Both the position numbers and the translations under genes were made by a program. Below, in pieces: positions 19,928-41,945 of a stretch of DNA of 64,000 nucleotides. The notes under the pieces were generated by a model. That model had not been told where the DNA came from. It did not search any database and saw only the letters and a program-made list of their open reading frames with translations. The stretch spans positions 372,001-436,000 of the forward strand of contig NZ_JQFA01000004.1 in assembly GCF_000763385.1 (NCBI RefSeq), given 5' to 3'. Within the stretch, counting starts at the first letter, position 1. Each line of letters opens with the position of its first letter. The DNA comes from Leptolyngbya sp. KIOST-1. Its GTDB lineage: Bacteria; Cyanobacteriota; Cyanobacteriia; Phormidesmidales; Phormidesmidaceae.

Positions 19928-22429
19928 ATGACTGAAACCCCATCCCTTCCCCAAATCCCCCCCCAGGCGTGGCAGCGACCGATCGGCCAGCCCTGGGAAC
20001 ACCACTACATTGTGCGCTACGCCAGCAACCTCGATGATGGCCCCAGCCACGGGGCACCCCTGGGTGGCATGGGGGCAGGCTGTATGGGGCGATCGCCCCA
20101 CGGCGACTTCAACCTCTGGCACCTGGACGGCGGCGAGCATCTGTTCCAGAGCTTCCCTGGCTGCCAGTTCAGCCTGTGGGAGAGCACCGGGGCAGGCACC
20201 CAGGCCTACGGCCTCAGCACCGAGCCGCCCAAGGATGGGACGTTGTCCGCCTGGCAGTGGTATCCCGCTTCCACCCAGGGACGCACGACGGGGAGCTACC
20301 ACGCCCTCTACCCCCGCAGTTGGTACCGCTACGAGAATGTGTTTCGCGCTCAGGTCACCTGCGAACAGATCTCGCCCATCTGGCCCCACAACTACAGAGA
20401 AGCCAGCTACCCGGTGGTGGCCTTTGAGTGGACCGCCCACAACCCCACCCGCTTCCCCATCACCCTGAGCGTCATGGTGAGCTGGCAGAATATGGTGGGC
20501 TGGTTCACCAATACGCAAAAATCCCCCGAGGTGCTGCAACGCGACGACGGTAGCCCCTACTACGACTACGTGCCTGCGATCGGCCAAAGCACAGGCAACT
20601 TTAACCAGTTCCTCAACGAGGGTGGCCTCAGGGCGCTGGTGATGGATGGGGCTTGGGAGGGGGAACCTGCCGAAGGCGACGGTCAGTGGTGCATCGCAAC
20701 GTTGGATGACCCCAGTGTAGAAGTGTCCTACGACCTGCGGTGGAACCCGGCGGGTGACGGGCGCGACCTGTGGGATACCTTTGCCAAGCTGGGGCGATTG
20801 ATGAACCTGCTGGACACCAGCCCGGCAAAAGAAGGAGAGCAGATTGCGGGGGCGATCGCCCTCCGCTTTACCCTGCAACCCGGCGAGACCAAGCAGATCC
20901 CCGTCGCTCTGGCGTGGGATTTGCCCGTCACCGAGTTTGCTGCCGGGGTGGTGAACTATCGGCGCTATACCGACTTTTTTGGCCGGAGCGGACGGAATGC
21001 GCGGGCGATCGCCTTCACCGCCCTGAGCGACTACCAAACCTGGCAGCGGGAAATTACCAACTGGCAGCAGCCGATTCTCGATCGCCCCGACCTGCCCGAC
21101 CCCTTCAAAATGGCACTGTTCAACGAGCTGTATGACCTGGCCAGCGGCGGCACCCTGTGGAGCGCCGCCACCGAGGCCGACCCCGTGGGCCAGTTCGCCG
21201 TGCTGGAGTGCATTGACTATCGCTGGTACGAAAGCCTGGACGTGCGCCTCTACGGCGGCTTTGCCACCCTGCTGCTGTGGCCGGAGCTGGAGAAGGCCGT
21301 GCTGCGCGCCTTTGCCCGCGCCGTCCCCACCCAGGACGATCGCACCCGCATCATTGGCTACTACGTCACCATGGGCCTGGAGCAGCCCCCGGCGCTCCGC
21401 AAGCTCAAGGGCGCAACCCCCCACGACCTCGGTGCCCCCAACGAGCACCCCTGGGCGCAGACCAACTACACCAGCTACCAAGACTGCAACCAGTGGAAAG
21501 ACCTGGGCAGCGACTTTGTGCTCCAGGTTTACCGCGCCTACCGGTTCACGGGGGCGACGGATGTAGAATTCCTGAAAGACTGCTGGCCCGCCGTGGTCGA
21601 TACCCTGCAATACCTGAAGCACTTCGATCGCGACGGCGACGGCATGCCCGAAAACGAGGGTGCCCCCGACCAGACCTTCGACGACTGGCAGCTCAAGGGC
21701 ATTAGCGCCTACTGCGGTGGGCTGTGGCTGGGGGCGCTGGAGGCGGCGATCGCGATCGCCGAAATCCTCACCGCTGCCAACCTTGCCCCCGGCAACACCC
21801 CGATTTTGCTCAGCCAGTACCGCCGCTGGCTCGACAACGGCCTCAAGGCCTACCACCCCAAGCTGTGGAATGGCCGCTACTACCGCCTCGATACGGGCAG
21901 CGGCTCCGATGTAGTGATGGCCGACCAGCTCTGCGGCCAGTTTATGGTGCGCCACCTGGGCCTGCCCGACCTGGTGGAGGATGAGTTTACTCTCTCGGCC
22001 CTCGATGCCATCTACGACGCCTGCTTTGTGAAATTTAACCAGGTCGTCCAAAGCCAGGAACGTCCCCCCCAGCAAAAGTTTGAGGGGGCGCAGCTGGGCA
22101 ACTTTAGCGCCGCCACGCTGAAAATGGCGATCGGGGCGGCTAACGGTGTGCTGCCCGACGGTTCCCCGGAAGACCCCGACAGCACCCACCAGCAGGAGGT
22201 GTGGACGGGGATTAACTTTGGTCTGGCGGCGTTTTTGGCCCAAATGGGCAAGCGGGAGGAGGCGATGGCGATCGCCCTGGCCGTCATCCACCAAATCTAC
22301 AGCTACGGCCTGCAATTTCGCACCCCGGAGGCGATCACCGCCCTGGGCACCTACCGCGCCTGCCACTACATGCGCCCCATGGCCATCTGGGGGCTATACG
22401 AAGTGCTCACCGCCAGCCCCGATCCGTAG
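19928..22429 (+). CDS. GH116 glycosidase (bile-acid beta-glucosidase/GBA2-like)
   Basis: An 833-residue protein with the N-terminal beta-sandwich (GGMGAGCMGRSPHGDFNLW) and the C-terminal (alpha/alpha)6 barrel of GH116. The nucleophile is predicted as E427 in VLECIDYRWYESLDVRLYG and the acid/base lies in DQTFDDW (from D581), followed by SAYCGGLWLGAL. Family members hydrolyse beta-glucosides, including glucosylceramide in animals and aryl glucosides in bacteria. No signal peptide, so it is cytosolic. The TAG stop codon is part of the inverted-repeat element that begins at 22426, so the last residues may have been set by that insertion. Confidence 0.9.
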   Translation: MTETPSLPQIPPQAWQRPIGQPWEHHYIVRYASNLDDGPSHGAPLGGMGAGCMGRSPHGDFNLWHLDGGEHLFQSFPGCQFSLWESTGAGTQAYGLSTEPPKDGTLSAWQWYPASTQGRTTGSYHALYPRSWYRYENVFRAQVTCEQISPIWPHNYREASYPVVAFEWTAHNPTRFPITLSVMVSWQNMVGWFTNTQKSPEVLQRDDGSPYYDYVPAIGQSTGNFNQFLNEGGLRALVMDGAWEGEPAEGDGQWCIATLDDPSVEVSYDLRWNPAGDGRDLWDTFAKLGRLMNLLDTSPAKEGEQIAGAIALRFTLQPGETKQIPVALAWDLPVTEFAAGVVNYRRYTDFFGRSGRNARAIAFTALSDYQTWQREITNWQQPILDRPDLPDPFKMALFNELYDLASGGTLWSAATEADPVGQFAVLECIDYRWYESLDVRLYGGFATLLLWPELEKAVLRAFARAVPTQDDRTRIIGYYVTMGLEQPPALRKLKGATPHDLGAPNEHPWAQTNYTSYQDCNQWKDLGSDFVLQVYRAYRFTGATDVEFLKDCWPAVVDTLQYLKHFDRDGDGMPENEGAPDQTFDDWQLKGISAYCGGLWLGALEAAIAIAEILTAANLAPGNTPILLSQYRRWLDNGLKAYHPKLWNGRYYRLDTGSGSDVVMADQLCGQFMVRHLGLPDLVEDEFTLSALDAIYDACFVKFNQVVQSQERPPQQKFEGAQLGNFSAATLKMAIGAANGVLPDGSPEDPDSTHQQEVWTGINFGLAAFLAQMGKREEAMAIALAVIHQIYSYGLQFRTPEAITALGTYRACHYMRPMAIWGLYEVLTASPDP

Positions 22430-22599
22430 GGTGCATTCGCGGCGCGACACCCCCTGCTGCTACCCCACCACCCCCGCCCGCCGCAATGCACCACAGCGAG
22501 GAACCCGATTGTGAGGATATTCGCGATGGTTAGGCGGTGCATTGCGGCACAGGGGCGATCGTCTAGTGCGAAGATTTGAGGGCCGCGAATGCACCCTAC
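22426..22599. repeat. 174-bp inverted-repeat element, copy 1
   Basis: The ends are an 18-bp perfect inverted repeat: GTAGGGTGCATTCGCGGC at 22426 and its complement at 22582-22599. A second nested pair, GCCGCAATGCACC (22480-22492) and GGTGCATTGCGGC (22536-22548), lies inside. There is no ORF, so it could be a MITE or a structured RNA-forming repeat. Its second base begins the stop codon of the GH116 gene. No target duplication is evident. Confidence 0.85.
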
Positions 22600-22617
22600 C
22601 GATGAAGGAGAGCGCCG

Positions 22618-22857
22618 ATGTCAGAAAAACTTCTCTTCCAATACGATCAGGTGAGCGATATTTTCTACATCAACAAATGCGCGCCCTACGCTGAGCAAGA
22701 ATCCGAAGAAATTGGCGACGAGATGATTGCCCGCCTCAACCCGGTGTCTGGCGAGGTGGAGAATTTGGAAATTCTCTTTTTCTCAAAGCGACTCTTGAAT
22801 GCGGACTTTCTGCTGGAATTGCCCGTTATCGCTAATTTGCGGTTGGCGGCATCGTAG
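22618..22857 (+). CDS. DUF2283-family small protein
   Basis: A 79-residue protein. The start FQYDQVSDIFYINKCAPYA matches the DUF2283 strand pattern (YD...D.LYI), followed by an acidic helix and NPVSGEVENLEILFFSKRL. An AAGGAG site sits 8-13 bp before the ATG. The family is common in cyanobacteria and its function is unknown; some members accompany toxin-antitoxin loci. The gene is boxed in by two copies of the same inverted-repeat element, and the second copy supplies its TAG stop. Confidence 0.75.
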   Translation: MSEKLLFQYDQVSDIFYINKCAPYAEQESEEIGDEMIARLNPVSGEVENLEILFFSKRLLNADFLLELPVIANLRLAAS

Positions 22858-23031
22858 GGTGCATTCGCGGCACGATCACTTTCAGCTTCTACCCTTTTAA
22901 CCCCTGCCCCGCCGCAATGCACCGATGGCGGTGAGGCAAATGCGGGGATGCTCGCGATAGGTGGGCGTTGCATTGCGGAGCGGAGATGGGTGGGTGGTGG
23001 GCGTAGGTTGGGGGCCGCGAATGCACCCTAC
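22854..23031. repeat. 178-bp inverted-repeat element, copy 2
   Basis: It has the same 18-bp terminal inverted repeat as copy 1 (starting GTAGGGTGCATTCG at 22854; complement at 23014-23031). It also has the internal GCCGCAATGCACC at 22911-22923, with a slightly degraded partner near 22966. The middle has diverged from copy 1. As in copy 1, bases 2-4 (TAG) are the stop codon of the preceding gene. Confidence 0.85.
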
Positions 23032-23078
23032 CGCAGGAGCCACCACAGCAGGACGGTGATACCGAGACCCAGCAAAAA

Positions 23079-25407
23079 CTACAGCGCTATGGGCACCCGC
23101 TGGGGGCGTGTCAATAAGGTGGTGAGAAGGGTGGGGGCTGCTTTCGGTTCTGCCACAACCATTTGGCTGAGGTCATCAAGGGCACGATCGCAGTCTTCTA
23201 CATTCTTAGAAAGTCCCATATCTTGGTACTTGGTACAGCGTCCGTGCAGATTCGTAGGCTTGACGGGCCTCCCATTTCTGATCAACGCTGGCTAGGGCTC
23301 CGCCAAGGTTGAAGAGGGAAGTGGCCTCGCCTTGGCGATCGCCGATCTCCTGCGCGATAGCTAACGCTTGCTGAAGATACTGAATGGCCTGTTGGGATTG
23401 GCCCAGAGACCGGTATACATTGCCCAAACTGCCTAGAGAATTGGCCTCGCCTTTGCGATCACCGATCTCCCGCGCGATAGCTAGCCACTGCTGGTGGTAC
23501 TTAATAGTTTGTTGGTCTTGACCTAACGAATCGTACACATTGCCCAAACTGCCCAGGGAATCAGCCTCACCTTGACGATCGCCAATCTCCCGCGCGATCG
23601 TTAATGACTGTTGCTGGTACTCAAGAGCCTGTTGATATTGGCCCAGCGACTGGTATACATTGCCCAAATTGCCTAGGGAACTGGCTTCGCCACGGCGACT
23701 TTCCTGCGGAAACGCTTTGCGAACGCCGATCTCCCGCATGATCGCTAGTGATTGTTGATGGTATTTAATTGCCTGGTGGTATTCGCCTAAAGAATGATAC
23801 ACATTACCCAAATTGCTTAGTGAATTGGCTTCCCCATGGCGGCTTTCCAGCAGAAACGCTTCTTGAACGCTCATCTCCCGCTTGATCGCTAATGACCGCT
23901 GATGGCACTCAATTGCCTGTTGGTACTGCCCCCGCGAATTGTACACAATGCCTAAGTTGCCGCAAACAGCAGCAAATGTGAGGTTTTCTGCTTGGGTCGG
24001 TCGCCATTGCCGATATAGCTGACCATACAGGTCAGCCAGGGTAGCGTAGTATCCGCGCAAACTAAAAAATATGTCGCACTTGCCAACTACAATTGCCGCA
24101 TCGTTAAAGCGGCCCAGCTGCACTTGGTGATAGAACGTCTCTAAATACTCCTTGGCGGCGTCTTGGGTGTCATTCGGGCCAAATTCCTGTCGGCGGTGGC
24201 TCCAAAAGTAGGCGATCGCCCGTTCATGGGCGGTAGTCAAATCCCCCGCCTGCCGCTGCACAAACTCGCGAATGCGGGGCTGTAGGCGAAATTGTAGGTG
24301 GCCTGCGGCACTGGGCTGGGACAGCTCTTGCAGCAGCGACCTTCTATCCAAATCGCGCAGGTCAGCATCCGTCACCGGCTGCTCCAGCACCAGGGCAGCG
24401 GCCATCTCCGCCGTAAATTCGTTTTGAAACACACTGGCCTGGTTCAGCAGGTGCCGCAGCGGCTCCGGCAGCCGCTCCAGGCTCCAAACCAGCACATCCT
24501 CGGCACTGATGTCGGTTTCGTAGGGGCGATCGCCCCTGAGCTGAAACAGATTGTCGAACTGTTCCAGATGACTCACCCAGCGGTTGCCGGGGCGATATTC
24601 ATTGCACAGCCACCCCGCCACCAGGGTCAGCGCCAGGGGGTTGCCCTGTAGCCGCTGGGCCAGGGGCACCAGGGCAGCCGGGTCGTTCTCCACCCCCAGC
24701 GCCCCTAGCAGTGCCGCCCCTTCCTCCGGGCTCAGCCCCTCATCCAGCAGCAGCCACTCCGACTGTCGCCAGCCAAAGTACTTGGCTGGGTATTCTCGAC
24801 TGGCCAGCAGCAGCACACTCTGGCTGCCCAACTGCTGAAAATCGCGCAGAAAGTCGGCATAGCCCCCCTGCCACTCTCCTTCCGGCGTCAGCAGCGACTC
24901 CATATTGTCGATCGCCAGCAGGTAGCGGCCCATTTGTAGATGGCGCAGCAGCCGCTGGGGCAGGTCTTTATCCTCAATAGCCTGCACCTGGTCAATGGGC
25001 ACGTCTAGCTCCAGCAACGCCCGCCGGGCCAGGGCCGATAAGTTGGTACCGGTACGCACATCGGCCCAAAATTTGCTGGCAAAGCCAGGGCAGTCGGCAA
25101 AAGCTTTGCCCACCAGGGTGCTCTTGCCAATGCCCCCCTCGCCCCGCACGCCAATGATGGCGGTGGTGCCCTCTTGCAGCCAGGTGTTGAGCTGGCCCAA
25201 CTGCTCCTGCCGTCCCTGGAAGTAGCGCAGCTCCGGCAGCGGGTCGCTGTAGATTAGCCGAGCCTTTTCGGCCTCGTGGATGGTGATGATGTTGGTTTGG
25301 TGCTCAACCGTTCCCTGGTTGAGGACGCCAATTTTTTCAACCACCGGCTGGCCCCTACAGGTTGATGGTGTTTTGCTGGTTGACGATGGTGCCCTGGTTG
25401 ACGACAC
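23079..25407 (-). CDS. NB-ARC/TPR STAND NTPase, C-terminus frameshifted
   Basis: A signal-transducing NTPase of 733 residues in the intact frame (stop at 23206). The N-terminus repeats the VNQGT-type motif of the gene before it, followed by FQGRQEQL and the P-loop GEGGIGKSTL (89-98), Walker B RYLLAIDNMES, and a winged-helix region. At least five TPR repeats of about 40 residues follow (SLGNLGNVYxSLGQxQQAI). A 7-bp tandem duplication, CTTGGTA twice at 23222-23235, shifts the frame near the end. Removing one copy restores YQDMGLSKNVEDCDRALDDL and runs to a stop at 23079. STAND proteins of this type act as ligand-triggered switches, often in defence or cell death. It starts with GTG and overlaps the upstream small gene by 53 bp. 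Confidence 0.85.
23222..23235. repeat. 7-bp tandem duplication causing a frameshift
   Basis: CTTGGTA occurs twice without a gap. On the coding (minus) strand it reads TACCAAG twice. The duplication adds +1 to the frame and replaces about 42 C-terminal residues with five. Confidence 0.85.
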
Positions 25408-40209: not shown

Positions 40210-40546
40210 GGGGCAACAGGTGAAAGGCCAGCAGGCAGAGGTTTCTTACCTTTTACCTGATCTTCCCCTCAGTGGAGCCGCTGACCCGCCACACTTTCAC
40301 CCTTTAAACGCATAAATTAACCGAGACAAGAGAATTGAAGCCTCGTCTCGGGGGTGCGATCGCCTCCAACCGTAGGGTGGGCAAAGCCCGCCACCCCACT
40401 TATTCACCCACCACCAACCCCGAATATTCAGCGATTCCTTCGGATAGCTTCGCTAACGCGCCAGTGCAAGGTAAGCGGCGTCCACCCGATGGGTTTGGCT
40501 TGCAGTAGCAGGGGTGCAAGGTGGGCGGTGCCCACCCTACAGTGGT
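40210..40546. other. Gap upstream of the ISP operon with repeat element
   Basis: It contains the inverted-repeat element at 40372-40540 and a probable promoter region for the ISP operon between 40210 and 40370. No coding sequence is visible. Confidence 0.6.
40372..40540. repeat. 169-bp inverted-repeat element, related type (copy 3)
   Basis: Begins GTAGGGTGGGCAAAGCCCGC and ends GTGGGCGGTGCCCACCCTAC, so the terminal 12 bp (GTAGGGTGGGCA) are inverted repeats. The first eight bases (GTAGGGTG) and the overall size are shared with the elements at 22426 and 22854; the rest differs. It ends 6 bp from the stop codon of the small minus-strand gene. Confidence 0.75.
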
Positions 40547-41132: not shown

Positions 41133-41237
41133 CCTCGTTCCCATGCTCCCGCCTGGGAATGCCCCGCCTAGGCTCCGCCTCCCCCTCTGCGGCAGAGCCG
41201 CACCAGCTTGATAACTCAGGCAGAGCCTGGGCACCAG
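41133..41237. repeat. Triple-hairpin REP-like repeat, copy A
   Basis: About 105 bp from CCTCGTTCCCA to GCCTGGGCACCAG. It has the same block order as copy B, but the first hairpin is degraded. The central palindrome GCGGCAGAGCCGC is intact. Confidence 0.75.
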
Positions 41238-41256
41238 ACAGAGTCCCCCGCCGCCA

Positions 41257-41356
41257 CCTCGTTCCCAGGCTCAGCCTGGGAATGCTCGCCGAGGCTCCGC
41301 CTCCTCTTGGCGGCAGAGCCGCCTCTAGCGCTACCCAGGCAGAGCCTGGGCACCAG
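41257..41356. repeat. Triple-hairpin REP-like repeat, copy B
   Basis: The cleanest copy. It contains three hairpins: CCCAGGCTCAGCCTGGG, then GGCGGCAGAGCCGCC, then CCCAGGCAGAGCCTGGG. It lies 20 bp after copy A in direct orientation and 55 bp upstream of the transposase gene. Confidence 0.82.
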
Positions 41357-41411
41357 ATATCAGTTAGACCCCGGCGGGCACTCTTCACGAACAGCTACAC
41401 AACACCCCCCT

Positions 41412-41945
41412 ATGGGCCGTTCAAGATATCGCACCCTTGACAATTACCCGCATTTTCTGACCTGCACTGTGGTCAACTGGCTACCCGTATTCAGCCATCC
41501 TCAGCTGGCGCAGATTGTGTTAGATTCCCTCCGCTTTCTACAGGCTGAAGACCGCCTCACTCTGCATGGCTACGTCATCCTTGAAAATCATCTGCACCTG
41601 ATTGCCTCAGGAGATCAGCTCGCAAAGGAAATTGGCAAGTTCAAATCATTCACCGCTCGATCAATCATCGACCGCTTGCATGAGCAGCCAAAAGCTAATC
41701 TGCTACAGCAATTGAAAGCAGCAAAGCTATCCCACAAAACTGGACAGCGCTATCAGCTTTGGCAGGAAGGCTCTCATCCGCAAGCCCTGACCTCGCCGGA
41801 AATAGCGCAACAAAAGCTTGAGTACATCCACAACAACCCAGTTGCCAGAGGTTATGTAGACGAACCGGGGCATTGGCGTTATTCCAGCTACCGCAACTAT
41901 TCGGGACAGCAAGGGCTAATAGACATAAACCCCCTTGAGCTTTAA
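41412..41945 (+). CDS. REP-associated tyrosine transposase (RAYT)
   Basis: A 177-residue Y1 transposase of the IS200/IS605-related RAYT group. The start at 41412 (MGRSRYRTLDNYPHFLTCTV) matches the family N-terminus. The HUH motif is HLHLIASG, and the C-terminal signature YIHNNPVARGYVDEPGHWRY followed by SSYRNY is present. RAYTs bind and nick the palindromic repeats that surround them, and are thought to be single-copy domesticated enzymes. Here two repeats lie upstream and one downstream, in the same orientation, which supports the pairing. No IS ends are seen. Confidence 0.88.
   Translation: MGRSRYRTLDNYPHFLTCTVVNWLPVFSHPQLAQIVLDSLRFLQAEDRLTLHGYVILENHLHLIASGDQLAKEIGKFKSFTARSIIDRLHEQPKANLLQQLKAAKLSHKTGQRYQLWQEGSHPQALTSPEIAQQKLEYIHNNPVARGYVDEPGHWRYSSYRNYSGQQGLIDINPLEL

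Follow-up and report, generated by a model that had tools for sequence, protein, structure and literature searches.

We analysed a 64-kb window (the whole stretch of DNA studied here, G000:C4:372001-436000) of a 6.32-Mb cyanobacterial genome, in which two consecutive genes, encoding a GH116 protein and a DUF2283 protein, each end at the tip of an inverted-repeat element. Both elements are head-to-head doublets of repetitive extragenic palindromic (REP) sequences, an arrangement called a bacterial interspersed mosaic element (BIME). The closest named relatives of the GH116 gene mostly belong to Nodosilinea or to relatives labelled Phormidium, Leptolyngbya or Shackletoniella. Genes were called with a home-made open reading frame (ORF) and hexamer caller and not taken from an annotation; the GH116 and DUF2283 genes rest on ORF and domain match, and the third gene of the locus on ORF and ortholog comparison. 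The name of the latter, TPR (tetratricopeptide repeat), is a reading of its repeated motif by eye, without a domain search. The locus is laid out as follows.

19928..22429, + strand: GH116 gene (PF04685, PF12215)
22427..22429, + strand: TAG stop of GH116, which is the TAG in the left GTAG tag of element 1
22426..22599, no strand: BIME 1, head-to-head REP doublet of 174 bp, from repeat analysis (RNA fold z -6.4)
22426..22492, + strand: REP unit 1A, consisting of the GTAG tag, stem GGTGCATTcGCGGC, a 36-nt loop and GCCGCAATGCACC, a layout shared with single copies such as L002 and L014
22536..22599, - strand: REP unit 1B, inverted, with its GTAG tag at 22599-22596
22618..22857, + strand: DUF2283 gene (PF10049)
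22855..22857, + strand: TAG stop of DUF2283, which is the TAG in the left GTAG tag of element 2
22854..23031, no strand: BIME 2, head-to-head REP doublet of 178 bp (fold z -4.8 as RNA, -4.4 as DNA)
22854..22923, + strand: REP unit 2A
22967..23031, - strand: REP unit 2B, inverted
23028..23030, - strand: TAG of the right GTAG tag of element 2, at the stop position of the convergent TPR gene (..WWLLR*)
23206..25407, - strand: convergent TPR gene, its 3' end disrupted between 23031 and about 23285

The first-pass annotation had described two elements, 174 and 178 bp long, whose 18-bp ends are perfect inverted repeats, each element starting one base before the TAG of GH116 or DUF2283, and we confirmed this description at those coordinates. 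The terminal inverted repeats span 22426-22443/22582-22599 in element 1 and 22854-22871/23014-23031 in element 2, and both gene-ending TAGs sit one base inside their element. The nested second pair that it also reported is present in both elements: its arms match perfectly along 13 bp in element 1 (22480-22492/22536-22548) and to 83% along 18 bp in element 2 (22907-22924/22966-22983). Each element reads GTAG-GGTGCATTcGCGGC-loop-GCCGCAATGCACC, followed by a spacer and a similar unit in inverted orientation, with one inner arm of element 2 altered. The terminal 18-mer occurs four times in the window, each time exactly with up to three mismatches allowed, against 0.09 occurrences expected. No direct repeat longer than TA was found at the edges of the two elements. 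At the 3' end of the TPR gene (window 23031-23285) there is a frame change and an internal TAG, and the last codons and the TAG at the element tip persist. Its orthologs in G009, G001, G013, G012 and G010 end at the GTAG of a REP-like tip, and that in G004 at ATAG.

We located the copies relative to stop codons by their offset, which measures how far the T of GTAG lies from the stop codon of the gene upstream on the same strand. Tips in the window's own genome came from 112 sites (1 of 113 was dropped as near the end of its locus), 44 of which were dropped for misfit to the hairpin patterns. The 113 tips from congeners were defined by their first 11 bases, with no hairpin criterion, in 77 loci of G009, G001, G011, G008 and G002 that were matches from a prior genome search with the repeat. 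Offset 0 was found for 6 of 68 own tips, at the genes for GH116, DUF2283, homoserine dehydrogenase, a chlH/cobN-like protein, a Uma2-type protein and a GGDEF protein (the last four names being assigned by eye), and for 7 of the 113 tips in the five congeners. These 13 tips represent 12 gene ends, homoserine dehydrogenase being counted in both sets. Among the 57 tips that have a same-strand gene end within 60 nt, 13 lie at offset 0 (p about 8e-12 at an expected share of 1/61, orthologous rows included), none at offsets -5 to -1 and none at a positive offset; no same-strand gene continues past the tip in another frame. Of the 44 dropped own sites, two (L058, L090) also lie at offset 0, and a same-strand gene extends beyond the site in two cases.

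The first-pass annotation had explained the shared arrangement by an insertion preference at stop codons or by selection for insertions that provide a TAG, a view against which random positions of the other copies would speak. The outcome was divided: overlap with stops is far above chance, offset 0 being about 14-fold over-represented, yet most copies, 168 of the 181 tips, lie away from stops. We then compared the tips with GTAGs outside coding sequence in the window, L092 and 14 GH116 loci, with REP copies left out. Stop codons make up 17 of these 306 GTAGs (5.6%), and 13 of 181 tips (7.2%) are on stops, with a probability of about 0.2 for at least 13. Because the two shares are similar, the use of GTAG alone suffices, and there is no need to assume either a preference for stop codons or selection for a supplied TAG. 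An open-frame count over all fetched loci (TAG frame 87, others 21 and 35) was discarded because it is biased by the ortholog searches.

Conserved gene ends provide a fixed ruler for the position of an insertion, whereas intergenic DNA offers none, and two genes were informative in this respect. All 23 orthologs of homoserine dehydrogenase examined share the same end codon (..VL). Its GTAG stop carries a REP in 12 of 17 inner genomes, own copy included (that of G003 is of the other REP family); the REP is apparently decayed in G016, G030 and G032, and G007 and G009 have TAA and no REP. The seven genomes branching below are REP-less, with GTAG in G005, G001, G014, G035 and G006, ATAG in G034 and GTGA in G031. 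The underlying tree was built with FastTree from about 600 bases of two genes and rooted on G034, without support values, and the site states were placed on it by eye. The second gene, urtC, ends in codon AAG followed by TAG in 23 of 26 genomes. There the stop is joined by the window's REP family in three genomes (G002, G031, G014) and by the other REP family or close variants in nine. In three more, G036, G009 and the own genome (where the next bases could be a decayed one), no REP is recognisable; the remaining eight are ambiguous or have their REP some 12 nt downstream. The REP-less site of G009 reads TAG-ACGCCGGAACCCGAAGGAGACC, and CCGGAAACCGAAGGAGACC or a close variant, which in G005, G016 and G033 stands within a few bases after the REP end, resumes just past GTAG in G009. 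In G016 the stop is TAA, with the REP beginning a few bases later. Judged from these sequences, the urtC stop clearly does not depend on the element. Most simply, the element would have inserted immediately 3' of GTAG with the gene sequence left complete; its exact loss would look alike. At both genes, the stop probably came before the REP.

The elements belong to a large family. With up to three mismatches, the terminal 18-mer has 48 sites in the own genome, against two for the reversed control, and GTAGGGTGC has 87 exact matches against 26 for its control. Copies occur as single units and as head-to-head doublets; singles are common (e.g., L001, L002, L014, L015, L025), as is a short form, GTAGGGTGCATTCGCGNAGCAATGCACC. 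At the paired columns 12 and 21 of the 28-mer short form, 95 distinct copies have T-A (81), C-G (11), T-G (1) or a mispair (2). A second REP family, GTAGGGTGGGCANTGCCCACC, carries the same GTAG tag, and a doublet of this family (GTAGGGTGGGCA..) lies at window 40372-40540. Counting the own genome, 24 of the 26 genomes of the genus contain the exact 16-mer GTAGGGTGCATTCGCG, compared with 7 of 37 from elsewhere in the family and, in an earlier draw, none of 11 from other families of the class. Only 2 of the 68 REP-like own tips lie inside genes, both predicted on the opposite strand (L024, and window 38863, the latter no clear REP), and no same-strand gene reads past any of the 68; 25 of the 44 sites dropped as non-REP-like are within genes. 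The repeats therefore have the features of GTAG-tagged REPs and BIMEs: GTAG at the foot of the palindrome, many mainly extragenic copies, inverted pairs and, in congeners, association with a REP-associated tyrosine transposase (RAYT).

This transposase, of the Y1 type, sits between the same repeats in the Nodosilinea congeners. Near-full-length RAYTs with 78-100% identity to P0001 occur at 10 loci in eight congeners (G029, G008, G030, G013, G012, G009, G033 and G011), and every one of these loci has GTAGGGTGCAT tips on both sides; a stop inside the match is reported for 5 of the 10. P0001 belongs to the NCBIfam equivalog NF047646, REP-associated tyrosine transposase (182.6 bits, cut-off 80), scores 26.5 bits against Pfam Y1_Tnp (cut-off 23) and matches E. 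coli TnpA-REP 4er8 with an E of 8e-36. Sister RAYTs of 43-48% identity carry the other REP family, GTAGGGTGGGC, on both sides at L247 and L230 (one L247 tip altered) and on one side at L228 and L229. Relatives at 57-60% identity (L244, L246) carry a third REP family, and a unit that begins like the window's long-loop type stands on one side of L225 and of L245. In L236, L237 and L248, GTAGGTTGCCCCTGRGGTTTT.. stands beside broken or full RAYT relatives and is perhaps a further REP family. The nearest cognate piece in the own genome is a broken relative of 41-42% identity (C2:3754234-3754703) without an adjoining GTAGGGTGC tip, and others are weaker. We considered the two Y1 genes of this genome that exceed the family cut-off as the cognate RAYT and rejected them, as they are flanked by different palindromes. 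These genes, L031 (C2:2257931) and L032 (C2:2555719), adjoin AGATCCCAGGGTT..AACCCTGGGATCT palindromes, another REP-like family. An ORF at window 41208-41945 (+) has a C-terminal half that is Y1-transposase-like (NHLH, YIHNNP) and weakly like RAYT (27%, E 5e-5), and an N-terminal part that resembles read-through of repeated DNA. By their sequence, the elements belong to the known GTAG REP/RAYT system; judging from the own-genome search, this strain appears to have lost the driver or to keep it only in degraded form.

According to Di Nocera et al. 2013 (PMC3733652), GTAG REPs of Cyanobacteria are imperfect palindromes found as singles and head-to-head dimers, mostly in intergenic DNA, and their GTAG termini often provide a TAG stop (there called opal) to flanking ORFs; stop-codon overlap of GTAG REPs is already in print and not new. 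The window elements are alike in tag, palindrome, singles and dimers, intergenic bias and TAG overlap, but their units have loops of about 33-39 nt, against 9-15 ("large", GTAG-15), up to 27 (Bradyrhizobium type) and 2-20 (table) in that source. As in REPtrons (TnpA-REP, NF047646, PDB 4er8), a transposase with HuH and Tyr motifs (HFH, YIHNNP) lies between two inverted REPs of the same family; here, however, it is intact in congeners and was not found intact in the window's genome. The doublet of inverted REPs as apparent mobile unit recalls the REPINs of Pseudomonas (PMC3116915), from which the window family differs in its low copy number, many single units and variable spacer. IS200/IS605 elements (see also PMC8266576) likewise combine a Y1 transposase with hairpin ends, and insertion beside a fixed tetranucleotide would match. 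An empty site of that type, holding the tetranucleotide, is seen at urtC and homoserine dehydrogenase, and at 0 of 11 for GH116 and DUF2283. A target role of GTAG for REPs is what we infer here, whereas the printed account calls GTAG a guide. The mechanism of REP spreading is left unresolved in PMC8266576 and PMC3116915; cyanobacterial RAYT subclasses are listed in PMC6006769, and the RAYT and REPIN framework is given in PMC2817692 and PMC3116915. In the accessible literature on RAYT/GTAG target sites and on REPINs and stops we found no empty-site test of REPs at stop codons, and a paper search found nothing on REPs in Nodosilinea.

We favour, as reasonably probable, the explanation that GTAG-tagged REP doublets spread by a RAYT are placed 3' of GTAG and hit stops about as often as stops occur among tolerated GTAGs. 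A REP-associated tyrosine (HuH, Y1) transposase would spread the doublets, and the repeats would land directly 3' of a GTAG tetranucleotide, which the comparisons at conserved gene ends suggest is the likely insertion target. Genic copies are rare, so intergenic GTAGs and those formed by a G-ending last codon plus a TAG stop would remain. The same event would have occurred at GH116 and DUF2283, and any function in the cell would follow incidentally from the mRNA hairpin formed directly behind the stop. More tentatively, and with somewhat less than even confidence, we propose that the GTAG tag belongs at least partly to the host target and not to the element, RAYTs inserting the palindrome directly 3' of a pre-existing GTAG. 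If true, this would account for the tag common to unrelated REP families, for the different families found at one urtC stop, and for the recurrent docking at TAG stops after a G-ending codon.

Several observations weigh against target use of GTAG. None of the REP-less orthologs ending at the same position has GTAG, be it at GH116 (0/5) or at DUF2283 (0/6), and 68 of the 77 orthologs of GH116 were unscorable because they terminate at a different codon. For the same reason we left out 12 of 21 orthologs at the chlH-like gene, 9 of 16 at Uma2, 17 of 23 at Q1left, 2 of 17 at DUF2283, and 1 of 3 each at GGDEF and L326. Over the nine loci with REP-less rows, 12 of 36 such rows had GTAG, the background figure being 62 of 321 stops (19%; p about 0.03, which is weak as the rows are related by descent). 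Rows with a decayed or shifted REP were set aside from these counts by eye, namely L365, L359 and L264 for homoserine dehydrogenase, L447, L454, L467 and L461-L466 for UrtC, L266 for Uma2, L203, L202, L205, L129, L499 and L207 for DUF2283, L477 for Q1left and, in the L286 row, L053. Where DUF2283 of the window stops at the tip TAG, its counterparts in G004, G029 and G011 have a TGA that is followed after 8 nt by a decayed REP. None of 15 sites tried in G008 and G011 gave a clean pair, the non-coding sites tried gave no clean empty site, and in the non-coding comparison of L317 with G029, GTAG is absent. Furthermore, the right ends of the REP at urtC are not uniform, the element ends read G-TA-GGGTGC and GCACCC-TA-C, compatible with a TA duplication, and no intact cognate RAYT was found in the own genome. 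Finally, PMC8266576 presents GTAG as the guide motif of the REP, with cleavage at a nearby CT or CA, and not as the target.

Some of these observations would be expected if the element itself supplied the stop, landing near a gene end whose original stop was then lost by mutation or deletion so that the in-frame TAG of the tip took over. The 0/11 result at the two window genes fits this, as does the TGA with decayed REP at DUF2283: the TAG of that REP is in frame in two of the three genomes (G004, G029), loss of 12 nt in the lineage of the window, or a matching gain in the other lineage, would convert one state into the other, and the element may have captured the stop. Similarly, the gene at L318 (G011) ends at a TGA 9 nt before the tip, and at L337 (G008) that codon is TGC and the tip TAG ends the gene, a possible stop change of the supply or capture kind in either direction. 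Nevertheless, we consider stop supply unlikely as the general explanation. The C-termini of homoserine dehydrogenase and urtC are nearly unchanged across the genus and have REP-less relatives with GTAG, longer proteins would usually be expected after capture, and the presence of two REP families at a single urtC GTAG would be left unexplained. In G004, the ortholog of L326 lacks a REP and likewise ends in GTAG, three codons further on as read by eye; GGDEF orthologs were too distant for a comparison of ends.

A hairpin kept by selection after the stop, for transcription end, mRNA protection or ribosome stalling, is less probable still. The stem begins directly after the stop codon, the elements fold strongly (z values above), and in E. 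coli reduced translation and ribosome stalling are reported for REPs that lie no more than 15 nt from a stop (PMC12306157). The first-pass annotation had suggested a four-armed fold acting as a transcription terminator or small RNA. The minimum-energy RNA fold contradicts the four arms, being one long concentric hairpin, with two separate REP hairpins as a possible alternative. As to the proposed roles, no intrinsic terminator (GC stem-loop plus T run) was found within the elements, two weak sites on the - strand both lying outside, and no Rfam match to the elements was found at E up to 1, nor to five other loci at gathering score. Most tips, moreover, lie away from stops, and the absence or decay of the element in 12 of 23 orthologs at homoserine dehydrogenase speaks against a necessary role there. 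An ordinary miniature inverted-repeat transposable element (MITE) mobilised by a DDE transposase, ending in inverted repeats GGGTGC.. and duplicating a TA target, would account for the perfect terminal repeats and for the TA at the element ends. We regard it as very improbable, as the ends are GTAG-tagged hairpins that flank REP-type Y1 transposases and single half-elements are common. That two insertions coincided with two stop codons by chance might be argued from the small share of tips on stops (13 of 181), but is hardly credible, being refuted by the single offset shared by 13 of the 57 near tips. Compared with these alternatives, we retain placement 3' of GTAG as the preferred explanation.

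The family is an ordinary one that gives a useful clue to REP insertion. With the Nodosilinea series at urtC and homoserine dehydrogenase, the question of whether GTAG is carried or targeted becomes a simple comparison and a simple oligonucleotide assay. Two further observations concern sequences next to or within the REPs. An abundant repeat of about 110 bp (GCCAGATCTGCTGCTGGGGCCATTTCGC..GGCCCCAGACCCCCGTCGA..GGAAAGGATT), which has no Rfam match at gathering score, often lies directly downstream of a REP; it is found at about 1610-1720 of L001, at L333, L322 and L316, and many times in G004, G008, G011 and G029. In L358, L361, L426 and similar loci, the REP loop seems to contain a second palindrome (GTAGGGTGCATAGCGCTAAGGCGCGGCTTCGCCTACGCG..), as if nested by insertion.

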